A stretch of DNA of 64,000 nucleotides. Origin: Desulforamulus reducens MI-1 (GTDB lineage Bacteria; Bacillota; Desulfotomaculia; Desulfotomaculales; Desulfotomaculaceae). The stretch spans positions 2,204,332 through 2,268,331 of the forward strand of contig NC_009253.1 of assembly GCF_000016165.1 (NCBI RefSeq). The letters run 5' to 3'. Shown one piece after another: positions 2,724 to 25,027 of this stretch. Under the pieces are notes generated by a model. The model was not told the origin of the DNA and searched no databases. It saw nothing but the letters and a program-made list of their open reading frames with translations. A program made the translations under genes and the position numbers. Every line of letters begins with the position of its first letter. Position 1 is the first letter of the stretch.

Positions 2724-3430
2724 TCTTTTATCACTCCTTTGCAGTGGAAATTAGCAGGGCAAAGACTTTCTATATGAATTTATATGCCGGTCCTTATATA
2801 AAAAGACGATTTGTAATAAAATGTAAAATTTGGTTTTAATTTTAGAAATTGTATGTGCCCGACTAATTCCAATCCTTCTATTTTTTAACTTTTGACTATT
2901 CTATTCTTCTAAGCAGAAAAGGTTCCCTGTAAAATTCCCCCTTGTCAGTGTTAATTTAAATATTTGGCTAGCTTGTTTCGGTTTTTTGCGATGGGAATTT
3001 TAGAAACAGGAACATAAAGACTGTACGTGATGTGTTAATTATTATTGCACAGGTGTAGATAAAACAACGGATGACAAGTAGAAAAATATTTAGGAAGCAG
3101 CTAAGTTCAGCAGGTAAGAGCGTTAGACAATATTAATTGATTTGCATATGGAGAGAGTTAACCCTGTCATGTGAGCCAGGGCTTTCTCTATTTTATTTCC
3201 ATTATATAATGTAACTTAAGTTTGCTAGAAAGGGGGGGTTGTGAACTTGCAAATTAAAATAGCATAGCTCTTGCAAAATAAATTGGTACAATTTTAGGCC
3301 TTGAACAGGTGATTTTGCAAATTATCCTAACCTAAGGATTAAAATTTTGCACAATAGCACATTCTTTTGGTTTAACAAAATATGAACATAAAAATAAGTT
3401 CGGCTACTAGATGTAACCGAACTTAAAAAT

Positions 3431-3646
3431 TTACATAGACATTTCTTGGACAGCCAATCGGACAACTTCCTCATCAATCGGTTCCTTTTTCATCTGATAT
3501 CCAGACAATAGACAGTTGGTAGCTAGGTTATTTATCAGGCGTGGCCAACCTCTAGAATGAGAGGTAATGGCCGAAATGGCAGACTCACTAAATATTTGAT
3601 GCCTTGCCCCGGCTAATTCTATGTGATGCTTTAGCGGTTTCTGAAG
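3431..3646 (-). pseudogene. C-terminal remnant of an ExeA/TniB-like transposon ATPase
   Basis: Reading the minus strand up to the TAA at 3431-3433 gives an open stretch containing KHHIELAGARHQIFSES, GWPRLINNLATNCLLSG and PIDEEVVRLAVQEM. This is the C-terminal lid region of the ExeA/TniB-type AAA ATPases that accompany DDE integrases in some Firmicute transposons. The Walker A and B motifs are absent, so only the last third survives. The 5' side runs into an unrelated dispersed repeat. The family call is from memory of conserved motifs. A decayed copy of the same type of element lies at 24273-25027. Confidence 0.6.
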
Positions 3647-3705
3647 GGTAAAAAAAGGACTTCACCCCTGTTCTGGTAGAAGTTACAAGTACCAACAAAT
3701 AACCA
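3630..3705 (-). repeat. Dispersed repeat, copy 1 (about 76 bp)
   Basis: The minus strand here is nearly identical to 22441-22516 on the plus strand, sharing words such as CCAGAACAGGGGTGAAGTCC and CCTTCAGAAACCGCTAAA. Both copies end at the same GCTAAA and then diverge. It probably marks an old recombination or insertion junction. Confidence 0.75.
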
Positions 3706-3927
3706 CAGGAAATAAAGAGGTGAAAGCTTATATAAAATACAGTAGGAAACATATTTCACAGAATTCCGTATCTGGTGAATTACACATAACTGAATCCCAG
3801 TCCAGATTGCGTATGCATTAATAAGGGAGTATCGCTAGCTACTAAAACGTAGTTTTGCAACACTACCCTAGAACAATTTTCATTATGTTTTTCTACAAGC
3901 ATATTAACTTTAAGTAACCATTTAATA

Positions 3928-22440: not shown

Positions 22441-22516
22441 TGGTTATTTGTTGGTACTTATATCTTTTACCAGAACAGGGGTGAAGTCCTTTTTTTACCC
22501 TTCAGAAACCGCTAAA
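22441..22516 (+). repeat. Dispersed repeat, copy 2 (about 76 bp)
   Basis: Nearly identical to the reverse strand of 3630-3705. Both copies begin around TGGTTATTTGTTGGTACTT and end at GCTAAA, with unrelated flanks. Confidence 0.75.
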
Positions 22517-22720: not shown

Positions 22721-24250
22721 GTGCTGGCTATAATTGATAGTGTGGCTTTACTTGGTTTAGATGGCCAACGAGTTCGAGTAGAGGTAGATGTTTCCAATGG
22801 TCTGCCTTGTCTAGATATCGTCGGATTACCTGATGCTGCCGTTCGGGAGGCAAAGGACCGAGTTCGATCTGCCATAAAAAACTCCGGCATGGATTATCCC
22901 ATTCAAAGAATAACCGTAAACTTAGCACCAGCTGACCTTCGTAAGGAAGGCCCAGTATTTGATCTGCCCATTGCTGTAGGAATTTTAGCAGCTACTGAAC
23001 AAATTAATTCCGAGTTTACGCTGGGGATACTCTTTTTAGGTGAGTTATCCCTAGATGGTTCTTTACGTGGTGTGCACGGGGTATTGCCCTTGGTTATGGC
23101 AGCCAGAGACTTAGGGTTAAAAAGGGTGGTTGTTCCCTTGGCAAATGCAGCAGAAGCAGCTTTAGTACAGGATGTAGAAGTATTTGGAATAAAAAATCTG
23201 GCAGAATTAGCTGTGGCGCTAAAGGGAGAAACAGAATTAAAACCTTACTTAGTTGAAGAGTTACCCACGGGTGTTTTACATGAAGAAGGATTGGATTTTG
23301 CTGATGTACGAGGACAGGCGGTAGCCAAGCGGGCAATGGAGGTGTCCGCTGCAGGGGGCCACAATATTCTTATGCTTGGTAGTCCGGGCTGTGGCAAGAC
23401 AATGTTGGCCAGAAGACTGCCCTCTATTCTACCGGATCTTACCTTTGAGGAATCTTTGGAGGTCACAAAGGTTTATAGTCTGGCTGGACGCCTATCTTCC
23501 GAAAACCCCCTAATAAAAAAACGACCTTTTCGGGCTCCTCATCACACCAGCTCAACTGCCAGCTTGGTTGGCGGTGGGCGAGTCCCCAAACCCGGAGAGA
23601 TTAGTCTTGCTCATTATGGCATACTTTTTATGGATGAACTTCCAGAATTCCACAAGGATAGCTTAGAGGCACTTAGACAACCTTTGGAAGATGGATGTAT
23701 CAGTGTTTCAAGAGTAGCTGCTAGCTTTACGTTCCCTGCTAAAATTATGCTGGTGGGAGCGGCTAACCCTTGTCCCTGTGGATATCAGTTAGATAAAGAG
23801 AAAGAATGCACTTGTACACCACACCAGATTCAAAAATATATCAATAGAATATCTGGGCCTCTATTAGATCGGATTGATATTCACCTGGAAGTACCCAAAG
23901 TTTCTTATGAAGAATTAAACAATGCTCCCCCAGGAGAAGAATCTTACTCTATAAAATTAAGGGTAGAAAATGCCCGAGCCATTCAAAGGGATCGTTTTAA
24001 AAATACATCAATAACTTGTAATGCATCTATGGGGGCAAGGGAAGTGCGACGCTTTTGTAAGCCAGATTTGCCTGGGGCAATGCTGTTACAAGAAGCTTTT
24101 AAAAAACTGGGATTAAGTGCCCGGTCCCATGATCGTATTTTAAAAGTAGCCAGAACCATTGCTGATTTAGCCGGGAGTGAGATTATAGGAACCAAGCATC
24201 TGGCAGAGGCTATACAGTACCGAAGCTTGGATCGTTTATTGAGGGGTTAA
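22721..24250 (+). CDS. comM: YifB/ComM family Mg-chelatase-like AAA+ ATPase
   Basis: 509 residues from a GTG start. The N-terminal part ([36 protein letters not shown]) resembles a Lon-protease-type fold. The AAA+ core has Walker [10 protein letters not shown], Walker [10 protein letters not shown] and a Cys cluster ([16 protein letters not shown]). The C-terminal Mg-chelatase-like domain ends [12 protein letters not shown]. ComM homologues are hexameric helicases that help branch migration in natural transformation. In many Firmicutes it lies next to rnhB, yraN and dprA; here rnhB and yraN are 7-18 kb away, so the cluster is broken. The gene is intact. Confidence 0.93.
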
Positions 24251-24272
24251 AGATAGGTTTTATTACTAACTC

Positions 24273-24520
24273 CTAATATCCGTCCAACCAAGATACCAAT
24301 GCCTCGTTTAGCTGGGCCAGGGTGGCGATATTCCCCTTTTGAATCTGCACATAGGCTTCTGGCTTGAAACTGGTATCAATGAAGCGGAAAAACCGTTCAA
24401 TTTTGCCCCGCCCCGTTATCCACATAAAGTTTTTCAGGCACACCATGCCGCAGGATGGCTTTCTTTAGGGAATCTTCTAACCGGGGCAATTTCTCGTCCC
24501 AGTAGAACTCGGCGTGAACA
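24273..24520 (-). pseudogene. Deleted DDE integrase
   Basis: The minus strand gives VHAEFYWDEKLPRLEDSL and HGVPEKLYVDNG, part of the integrase catalytic core, then jumps through a deletion or frameshift to KIERFFRFIDTSFKPEAY and ends at TAG 24273. The zinc/HTH N-terminus and the catalytic Glu region are lost. The type is a TnsB/IS481-like rve integrase. Confidence 0.7.
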
Positions 24521-24543
24521 CACATACGGCTGTAGTTGCCAAT

Positions 24544-24843
24544 CTATGGACAGGTTTTGTGGGATGAATTTAGCTTACCGCCACCGCAAATGAACGCTTC
24601 CTCCGGTAAAGCCATGAAAGCATAGAGCCTCCAGCTATCTCGGGAAAGGCAGATAAATCGATAGATAGGAATATGAGACTGGCCCTCCGGAGTATAAGCA
24701 TATCTGTAATATGTACCATGCCGATGTAACATTACTTGAATTAAGCAGTGGGGACATACCCTGGGGCGAAATTTTTCGGGGCAGCCATCAGAAAATAACT
24801 GAAGATAGGTCTCGACAGTTAAGTATTCTTCTATTAAAATCAT
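24544..24843 (-). pseudogene. DUF6431-like transposon accessory protein, probably frameshifted
   Basis: About 99 codons from the ATG at 24843. FRPRVCPHCLIQVMLHRHGTY followed by IPIYRFICLS resembles DUF6431, a Cys-containing domain found next to rve integrases. The second Cys pair expected after FIC is missing and the tail (SRDSWRLYAFMALPEE) does not look like the family, so the 3' part is probably out of frame or recombined with the integrase. The family call is from recollection. Confidence 0.5.
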
Positions 24844-24990
24844 TATGTGTTGATTTTGGGAAGAGGGAACTGGCTGGCTGGCCACATAGTTCCCTCTTCT
24901 TATTTATTTCCTCCTGATTGATTGGCATGTGCCATTAGTTTGCACACGATAATCATTATCCAGGATAACCGCCATTCATGGCAAGAAAAA

Positions 24991-25027
24991 AGCGTCACTT
25001 TACCGACATGTAAAGTTAGCGCCGACA
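24991..25027 (-). repeat. Transposon terminal repeat
   Basis: The minus strand begins TGTCGGCGCTAACTTTACA and repeats the motif as TGTCGGTAAAGTGACGC. A TGTCGG-type terminus with iterated integrase sites fits TnsB/rve transposons. The opposite end was not found in the window. Confidence 0.55.

Follow-up and report, generated by a model that had tools for sequence, protein, structure and literature searches.

Two decayed, probably independent insertions of a DUF6431-integrase-ATPase transposon family in a 64-kb window of the Desulforamulus reducens MI-1 genome

The window, by which we mean the whole stretch of 64,000 nucleotides analysed here (NC_009253.1, positions 2,204,332 to 2,268,331), holds two remnants of mobile DNA, both on the minus strand (Table 1). 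At 24282-25027, a TGTCGG terminus (read as CCGACA at 25022-25027 on the plus strand) is followed by a shortened DUF6431-like gene and then by two pieces of an rve integrase. At 3.2-3.6 kb lie the C-terminal tail of an AAA+ ATPase gene and the right terminus of an element. A first-pass annotation of these letters had proposed a TGTCGG-type end, a DUF6431-like gene and a deleted rve integrase at 24.3-25.0 kb, together with an ExeA/TniB-like ATPase tail at 3431; all of these were located, position 3431 being the 3' end of the ATPase gene. Neither remnant is a chance reading of the letters, since each shares 89-91% DNA identity over ~390 bases with other places in the genome: window 24648-25035 matches C1:604449-604837 at 91% over ~389 bp (E 1.7e-152), and window 3240-3633 matches C1:31447-31841 at 89% over 395 bp. 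A further match, at 88% identity (E 3.5e-59), joins window 24648-24827 to C1:2295306-2295485.

Table 1. Features of the two remnants and of the gene beside the 24-kb remnant. Positions are those of the window; identities are to the loci named.
Feature	Position	Strand	Match or remark
Lineage-B right terminus TGTGAACTTGCAAATTA, from 3240, inward on the plus strand	3240-3299	-	matches the right end of L018
AAA+ ATPase C-terminal tail, lineage B	3434-3634	-	88% over 67 aligned aa, L018 ATPase
comM-like gene (name assumed), uninterrupted	22721-24250	+	509-aa ORF; adjoins the truncated element end
rve integrase piece 2, GKIE motif onward	24282-24413	-	52% over 44 aa, L077
rve integrase piece 1, as far as the second-Asp motif YVDNG	24409-24543	-	78% over 45 aa, L077
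DUF6431 C-terminus scrap in another frame; weak, may be chance	24579-24653	-	36% over 25 residues, L075, E 0.17
DUF6431-like gene, N-terminal part; Cys pair 1 present, pair 2 gone	24649-24885	-	85% to L020
Lineage-C left terminus TGTCGGCGCTAACTTTACATGTCGGTAAAGTGACGC, TGTCGG motif repeated	24985-25027	-	common to the copy L020 at C1:604 kb

The DUF6431-like reading frame of the 24-kb remnant spans 24544-24885. Its recognizable part is 50-54% identical to the relatives L075 and L074 and 36-43% identical to L018, L019, L077 and L089; BLAST against L082 gave no match, and a Pfam search with the fragment assigned no family, so that its membership of DUF6431 follows from its homology to L020 and L021 and to L074 and L075. 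In tblastn alignments with the intact relative L077, the two integrase pieces cover its residues 226-270 and 298-341, and are too short for an rve and Mu-transpos_C assignment of their own. Between them lies an internal deletion of ~80 bp with a GGGGC microhomology at the junction, and an in-frame stop stands immediately ahead of piece 1. Everything beyond the WLD stretch of the integrase is gone, including the ATPase gene and the right end, and the remnant ends 32 bases from the stop codon of a gene that we take to be comM. Lacking the ATPase gene, the right end and parts of the other two genes, this copy cannot move by itself.

The remnant at 3.2-3.6 kb has lost everything upstream of the last 67 ATPase residues and, with only its right end and ATPase tail left, cannot move by itself either. 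As the first-pass annotation held, both loci have decayed, with truncated genes, deletions and lost ends, and this is ordinary decay. The break at 3633 abuts a 76-bp repeat. Full-length copies of this repeat, 95-96% identical, lie at window positions 3630-3706 and 22441-22516 and at C1:577764 and C1:3094903; C1:499686 has a shorter match.

Within the genome, which is a single contig (C1) of 3,608,104 bases, we distinguished three element lineages. Lineage A is present in five copies. Lineage B comprises the window piece at 3.2-3.6 kb and an older copy with a broken integrase (L018, C1:28.8-31.8 kb), and lineage C comprises the window piece at 24-25 kb and the copies L020 (C1:604 kb) and L021 (C1:2295 kb). 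DNA and protein searches of the genome found no intact copy of lineage B or C; the expectation that intact copies would exist elsewhere thus failed for the two lineages of the window, and holds only in the wider sense that the sister lineage A has five copies. L020 and L021 share a 435-bp stretch at 98.6% identity, which in L021 runs from DUF6431 into an AAA domain without an integrase. From this identity and from the AAA_22 start in L021, we take DUF6431 to be fused to the ATPase in both, and we read the pair as a single deleted C derivative that is probably present in at least two places.

Lineage A displays the intact anatomy of the family. It measures 3272 bp, runs from TGTAGATT to AATTGACA as defined by aligning the copies, which are 99.8-100% identical, and carries on one strand, in order, a DUF6431 gene (204 aa), a DDE integrase gene (465 aa) and an AAA+ ATPase gene (266 aa), the last two overlapping by one base. 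One copy occupies C1:1371577-1374848. All three frames are open in four of the five copies, while the fifth, L026, is interrupted by 1.7 kb of inserted DNA that contains a 474-aa frame, presumably an IS1380-type transposase. The ends of the family have the form TGT...ACA, and repeated motifs lie just inside them (ATTCTCAAATTAA and ATTCTCACATTAAA in L087, TTGCAAA in lineage B, TGTCGGTAAA in lineage C), as expected for putative transposase binding sites. The lineage-A copy of locus L025 (C1:1083000-1090000) lies within an apparent CRISPR array, in which GTTTCAATCCACGC...GTGAGGGGCGAC recurs. No direct repeat flanks this copy, as if a portion of the array had been lost.

Direct repeats flank many, and not all, of the copies. 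Across 14 copies they were 6 bp long in eight, 7 matching bases in one and absent in five, and we count these last five (two each among the five lineage-A and the eight G023 copies, and one in G094) against the explanation favoured here. In lineage A, three of the five copies have 6-bp repeats. The 2986-bp element of G023 has eight copies, with 6-bp repeats at five and 7 matching bases at one; its ends were taken from L082 and L083 with an end finder, and the six other copies gave 6 bp at three, 7 at one and none at two. This single-copy end finder rewarded direct repeats of at least 5 bases, so that the repeats at L077 (7), L090 (6), L092 (7) and L093 (6) carry no independent weight. No direct repeat flanked the one G094 copy tested, and the G094 copies L100-L102, whose ends the script did not match, are left out of the count. 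Two G023 copies, L097 and L099, are internally shortened (2451 and 2749 bp versus 2986), with shortened ATPase frames and no direct repeat.

That DUF6431, integrase and ATPase form a recurrent module, as had been stated at the outset, was confirmed in a wider sample. DUF6431 matches were found in 42 of the 113 genomes of the class and in none of 14 control genomes. At 49 of 60 DUF6431 places, an integrase lay downstream on the same strand, no more than 800 bp away; this count includes L111, which qualifies only at E <=1e-3 and had no integrase match at 1e-4, a point against the favoured explanation. An ATPase was also present at 32 of the 37 integrase-bearing places that had 2.9 kb or more of further sequence. 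The 60 places include identical copies (five in G000, eight in G023, four in G094 and two in G055) and consist of 57 of the 92 listed DUF6431 places plus L020, L021 and L076, the other 35 of the 92 falling outside the count; from 64 rows we dropped L035, L043 and L046 (the same as L107, L177 and L178) and L175, whose contig stops at the gene. The 11 of 60 places without a downstream integrase count against the favoured explanation: some appear decayed, but at L074, L113 and L176 the DUF6431 frame is long.

A pattern scan for the lineage-A DUF6431 protein in ~85,000 species genomes returned 22 loci, by their record titles mostly Desulfotomaculum-like, Moorella, Syntrophomonas and other Bacillota, with single metagenome-assembled genomes titled Chloroflexi, Armatimonadetes and Dysgonamonadaceae. 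The same trio occurs on two plasmids (Alicyclobacillus, Planococcus), annotated as DUF6431 protein, DDE-type integrase and AAA family ATPase, so that the parts are named and the element is not. On one of the plasmids a fourth gene, DUF5348, directly follows the ATPase, which we count against the favoured explanation. The lineage-A integrase had no match in 50,697 phage records at E 1e-20, and IMG/VR contained one lineage-A relative.

The integrases share a layout of a helix-turn-helix region, an rve domain with YxDNG and KGK-[IV]E motifs, which we take to be catalytic, and a Mu-transpos_C domain. The rve domain scored above its cut-off in all four full integrases scanned (L019, L077, L082, L089), and Mu-transpos_C did so in L077, L082 and L089 (39.5, 32.5 and 26.1 bits versus 21.7), with the lineage-A integrase (L019) at 19 bits, below the cut-off. 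Against solved structures, the integrase profile matched TnsB best (E 1.6e-6); the lineage-A integrase alone placed retroviral integrases slightly ahead of TnsB in the PDB, a result that we count against the favoured explanation. Near the C-terminus, 12 of 18 integrases carry a motif [PS]-x-[IV]-S-[FYW]-x-x-[LVIF]. The TnsB tail docks on TnsC, and by analogy we infer that this motif may contact the ATPase. An AlphaFold model of the integrase (mean pLDDT 51.3) was too poor for use. At two loci, L088 (5675-7837) and L103 (5178-7460), a single frame encodes both integrase and ATPase, and L103 differs from its 99.97% identical sister L081, with separate frames, by one base in length.

The ATPase matches AAA_22. 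TniB scored just above its cut-off of 22.4 in L077 (23.4) and L082 (22.9). The L018, L019 and L021 ATPases had no TniB listed, which counts against the favoured explanation. At E <=0.01, MuB was the sole solved chain in the PDB matched by the lineage-A ATPase (L019; E 2.9e-4), and IstB_IS21 was not listed for any of the five ATPases scanned (L018, L019, the partial L021, L077 and L082). Neither TniQ nor TnsA was listed among the three genes of the 3272-bp lineage-A element at E <=0.1. Because related integrases carry Mu-transpos_C and two related ATPases narrowly match TniB, we provisionally assign the family to the Mu/Tn7-type transposons, as one without TnsA or TniQ and with a zinc-ribbon protein in the third place.

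This assignment can be set against known systems. With Tn5053/Tn402 (TniA-TniB-TniQ) and Tn7-like elements the family shares an rve transposase with Mu-transpos_C (three of four scanned), a TniB-like AAA+ ATPase (above the cut-off in two of five scanned), a third protein, here a zinc ribbon, TGT/ACA ends and repeated subterminal motifs. It differs from them in that lineage A has no TniQ, no TnsA and no cargo, in that DUF6431 stands first in the unit, and in a target duplication of 6 bp, where Tn5053-like and Tn7-like elements duplicate 5 bp. The use of TniQ and/or TnsA by Tn7-like and Tn5053-like elements is described in a passage of PMC11406308. IS21 (IstA-IstB) likewise pairs a DDE transposase with a partner ATPase in a compact element; here, however, the ATPase is of the AAA_22 kind without an IstB_IS21 match in the five scanned, the DUF6431 gene is extra, and the NCBIfam IS21 score was 49 against a cut-off of 160. 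Phage Mu (MuA-MuB) offers the same transposase-ATPase pairing, with MuB as the structural match noted above, but the present element has a third gene and, at 3272 bp, is not a phage.

In the DUF6431 protein, an alignment of 16 members showed Cys 40, 45 and 77 to be invariant and Cys 80 to be present in at least 90%, with an LPxF..PY stretch conserved alongside the four cysteines. PF20020 (DUF6431) was matched by all 16 members at E <=0.1; at its cut-off of 26.6 bits, lineages A and B score above and the C remnants L020 and L021 just below (24.5 bits). The DUF6431 profile found nothing credible among solved structures (best E 0.1). An AlphaFold model (mean pLDDT 49.9) was too poor for use; at low confidence, the C-terminal half may be helical. 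These low-confidence models lend the adaptor role discussed below no structural support, and we count this against it.

Whether the window holds one insertion or two is decided by the lineages. A single element split by a 20-kb insertion or rearrangement, with the ATPase at 3.4 kb as the tail of the head at 24-25 kb, would agree with the minus-strand orientation of both parts and with their order, which runs as expected from a left end at 25027 to a right end at 3240. However, the ATPase tail shares 88% identity with lineage B versus 32% with the C ATPase retained in L021, which is itself 50% identical to the ATPase of the congener L077 and 37% to that of B; the DUF6431 parts of C and B are 38% identical; the termini are unlike (TGTGAACTTGCAAATTA in B versus TGTCGGCGCTAACTTTAC in C); and the DNA between the two parts includes long open frames, among them the comM-like gene. 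The difference between the ATPase lineages led us to reject a single element split over 21 kb, which we regard as very improbable. The ATPase tail is accordingly not part of the 24-kb element, as the first-pass annotation had supposed. Its family assignment was right; the two remnants part at the level of lineage, as B and C with different termini, and at that level its own refuting condition (remnants from different element families) applies. We conclude, with a probability of about 85%, that the window contains two independent decayed insertions, of lineages C and B, of one three-gene DDE transposon family, and we are highly confident of the identity and lineage assignment of the copies themselves.

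The nature of this family could be read differently. IS481 elements duplicate 6 bp of target and are not known to act with a partner ATPase, and the family might be an IS481-type insertion sequence whose transposase acts alone, with DUF6431 and the ATPase as cargo or regulators. The 6-bp duplication fits such a reading, and IS481 was the best NCBIfam match of the lineage-A integrase (175 bits, below the cut-off of 224), which we count against the favoured explanation; the open part of the lineage-B integrase scored 142 bits against the same cut-off. TGT/ACA ends also occur in IS481, according to a passage of PMC11406308. Against this stand the scores below cut-off, the three genes, a gene order and strand kept across lineages of low identity, the one-base overlap of the lineage-A integrase and ATPase genes, Mu-transpos_C in the transposases of three lineages, the conserved tail in many, and ATPases that match MuB or TniB; we consider an IS481-type element improbable. 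A narrower alternative concerns DUF6431, which might read the element ends as an accessory, much like the ISL3 transposase zinc ribbon, or act as a repressor, and not be a target selector. Zn_ribbon_ISL3 is matched by 3 of the 16 members at E <=0.1 (best E 0.0017), weak DUF6431 matches below the cut-off lie inside a 403-aa protein of G054 that we take to be an ISL3-type transposase, and the DUF6431 gene comes first in the unit. Nothing decisive speaks against an end reader or repressor, and nothing here demands a selector either; we hold it as a tentative possibility that falls somewhat short of an even chance.

Anatomy, lineage assignment, ends, direct repeats and multi-copy spread can be read from the DNA itself. 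From domain homology and the direct repeats, we propose a Mu/Tn7-type reaction with a 6-bp stagger and ATPase-dependent target capture. In this model DUF6431 may serve as a DNA-binding adaptor. We give the mechanism roughly even odds. The transposase would bind the subterminal repeats and join the element ends to target DNA at positions 6 bp apart, which would yield the 6-bp target duplication. The ATPase would pick and present the target DNA, and the conserved C-terminal tail of the transposase would contact the ATPase. For DUF6431 we infer a role as target-site or end adaptor, which would bind DNA and fill the position occupied by TniQ in Tn7-like elements.

The element family appears largely undescribed. 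In the open literature searched, which covers few subscription journals, one paper names DUF6431, as a label in a gene table, and none of the listed titles and abstract openings (for one query, 15 of 1,448 papers) described a DUF6431 transposon family. In CRISPR-associated transposons, the Cas effectors reach the ATPase through a partnership with TniQ, according to a passage of PMC10293859. A compact 3-kb family of this kind would allow one to test which parts of target choice need TniQ, since it combines a TniB/MuB-like ATPase and a Mu-type transposase with a different zinc protein and exists as near-identical copies in complete genomes. What DUF6431 does is the testable question.

Asking why integrases near lineage C are split in other genomes led us to RIT elements, triple tyrosine-recombinase elements named in a passage of PMC3414803. 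All four close relatives with a readable 5' flank (62-100% identity) sit at the exact second-Asp codon (YxD/NG, the slash marking the break) of a DUF6431-element integrase: L075 (G079:C11), L080 (G095:C110), L173 (G147:C3) and L174 (G279:C78). A fifth close relative, L172, had no integrase piece on its 4,680-bp contig. Three more distant RITs (28-35% identity) lie instead within DUF6431-element integrases at the motif of the third catalytic residue, KGK-[IV]E, with both halves seen for L188 (G010:C24) and one half each for L186 (G079:C65) and L187 (G093:C12). We fetched 34 RIT loci, 23 of them distinct and with at least 850 bp upstream in view. Seven of these 23 are in DUF6431-element integrases; four abut group II intron-type reverse-transcriptase genes, three of which are broken at QGG/P (RVT_1 profile 122-123); and one interrupts an IstB gene at its GPPxVG motif, presumably the Walker A motif (reverse-transcriptase and IstB loci L150, L151, L163 (and L154) and L148). 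The other 11 have no catalytic-motif site assigned; ten of 14 RIT-flanking stretches were scanned, and five of those scanned beside these 11 belong to transposases, one of which (an IS3-type frame) appears complete.

On a bold reading, the attachment sites of some RIT lineages would be the best-conserved catalytic codons of other mobile elements. A bolder synthesis, which we regard as unlikely, would set the present family apart as a branch of its own among ATPase-driven transposons. DUF6431, for which no kinship to TniQ was detected, would there have taken over TniQ's job as adaptor between target DNA and AAA+ ATPase, and the catalytic codons would serve as landing sites of parasitic RIT elements. 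In a passage of Van Houdt et al. 2012 (PMC3414803), one RIT lies in a transposase gene and another in radC, and a whole-word search of PMC3414803 for IS21 or istA found neither. No RIT recombinase relative was found in IMG/VR. Among plasmids, six records were read out of 65 with RIT relatives, and beside five of these six proteobacterial plasmid RITs (L180, L181, L182, L183 and L184, on plasmids of Paraburkholderia, Mesorhizobium and Rhizobium, 45-48% identity) we observed the IstA half of an IS21 broken at the CDN-motif Asp (residue 218). The sixth, L185, had no IstA half, and at L182 the IstA half lies ~2.8 kb off, with another IS21 in between.
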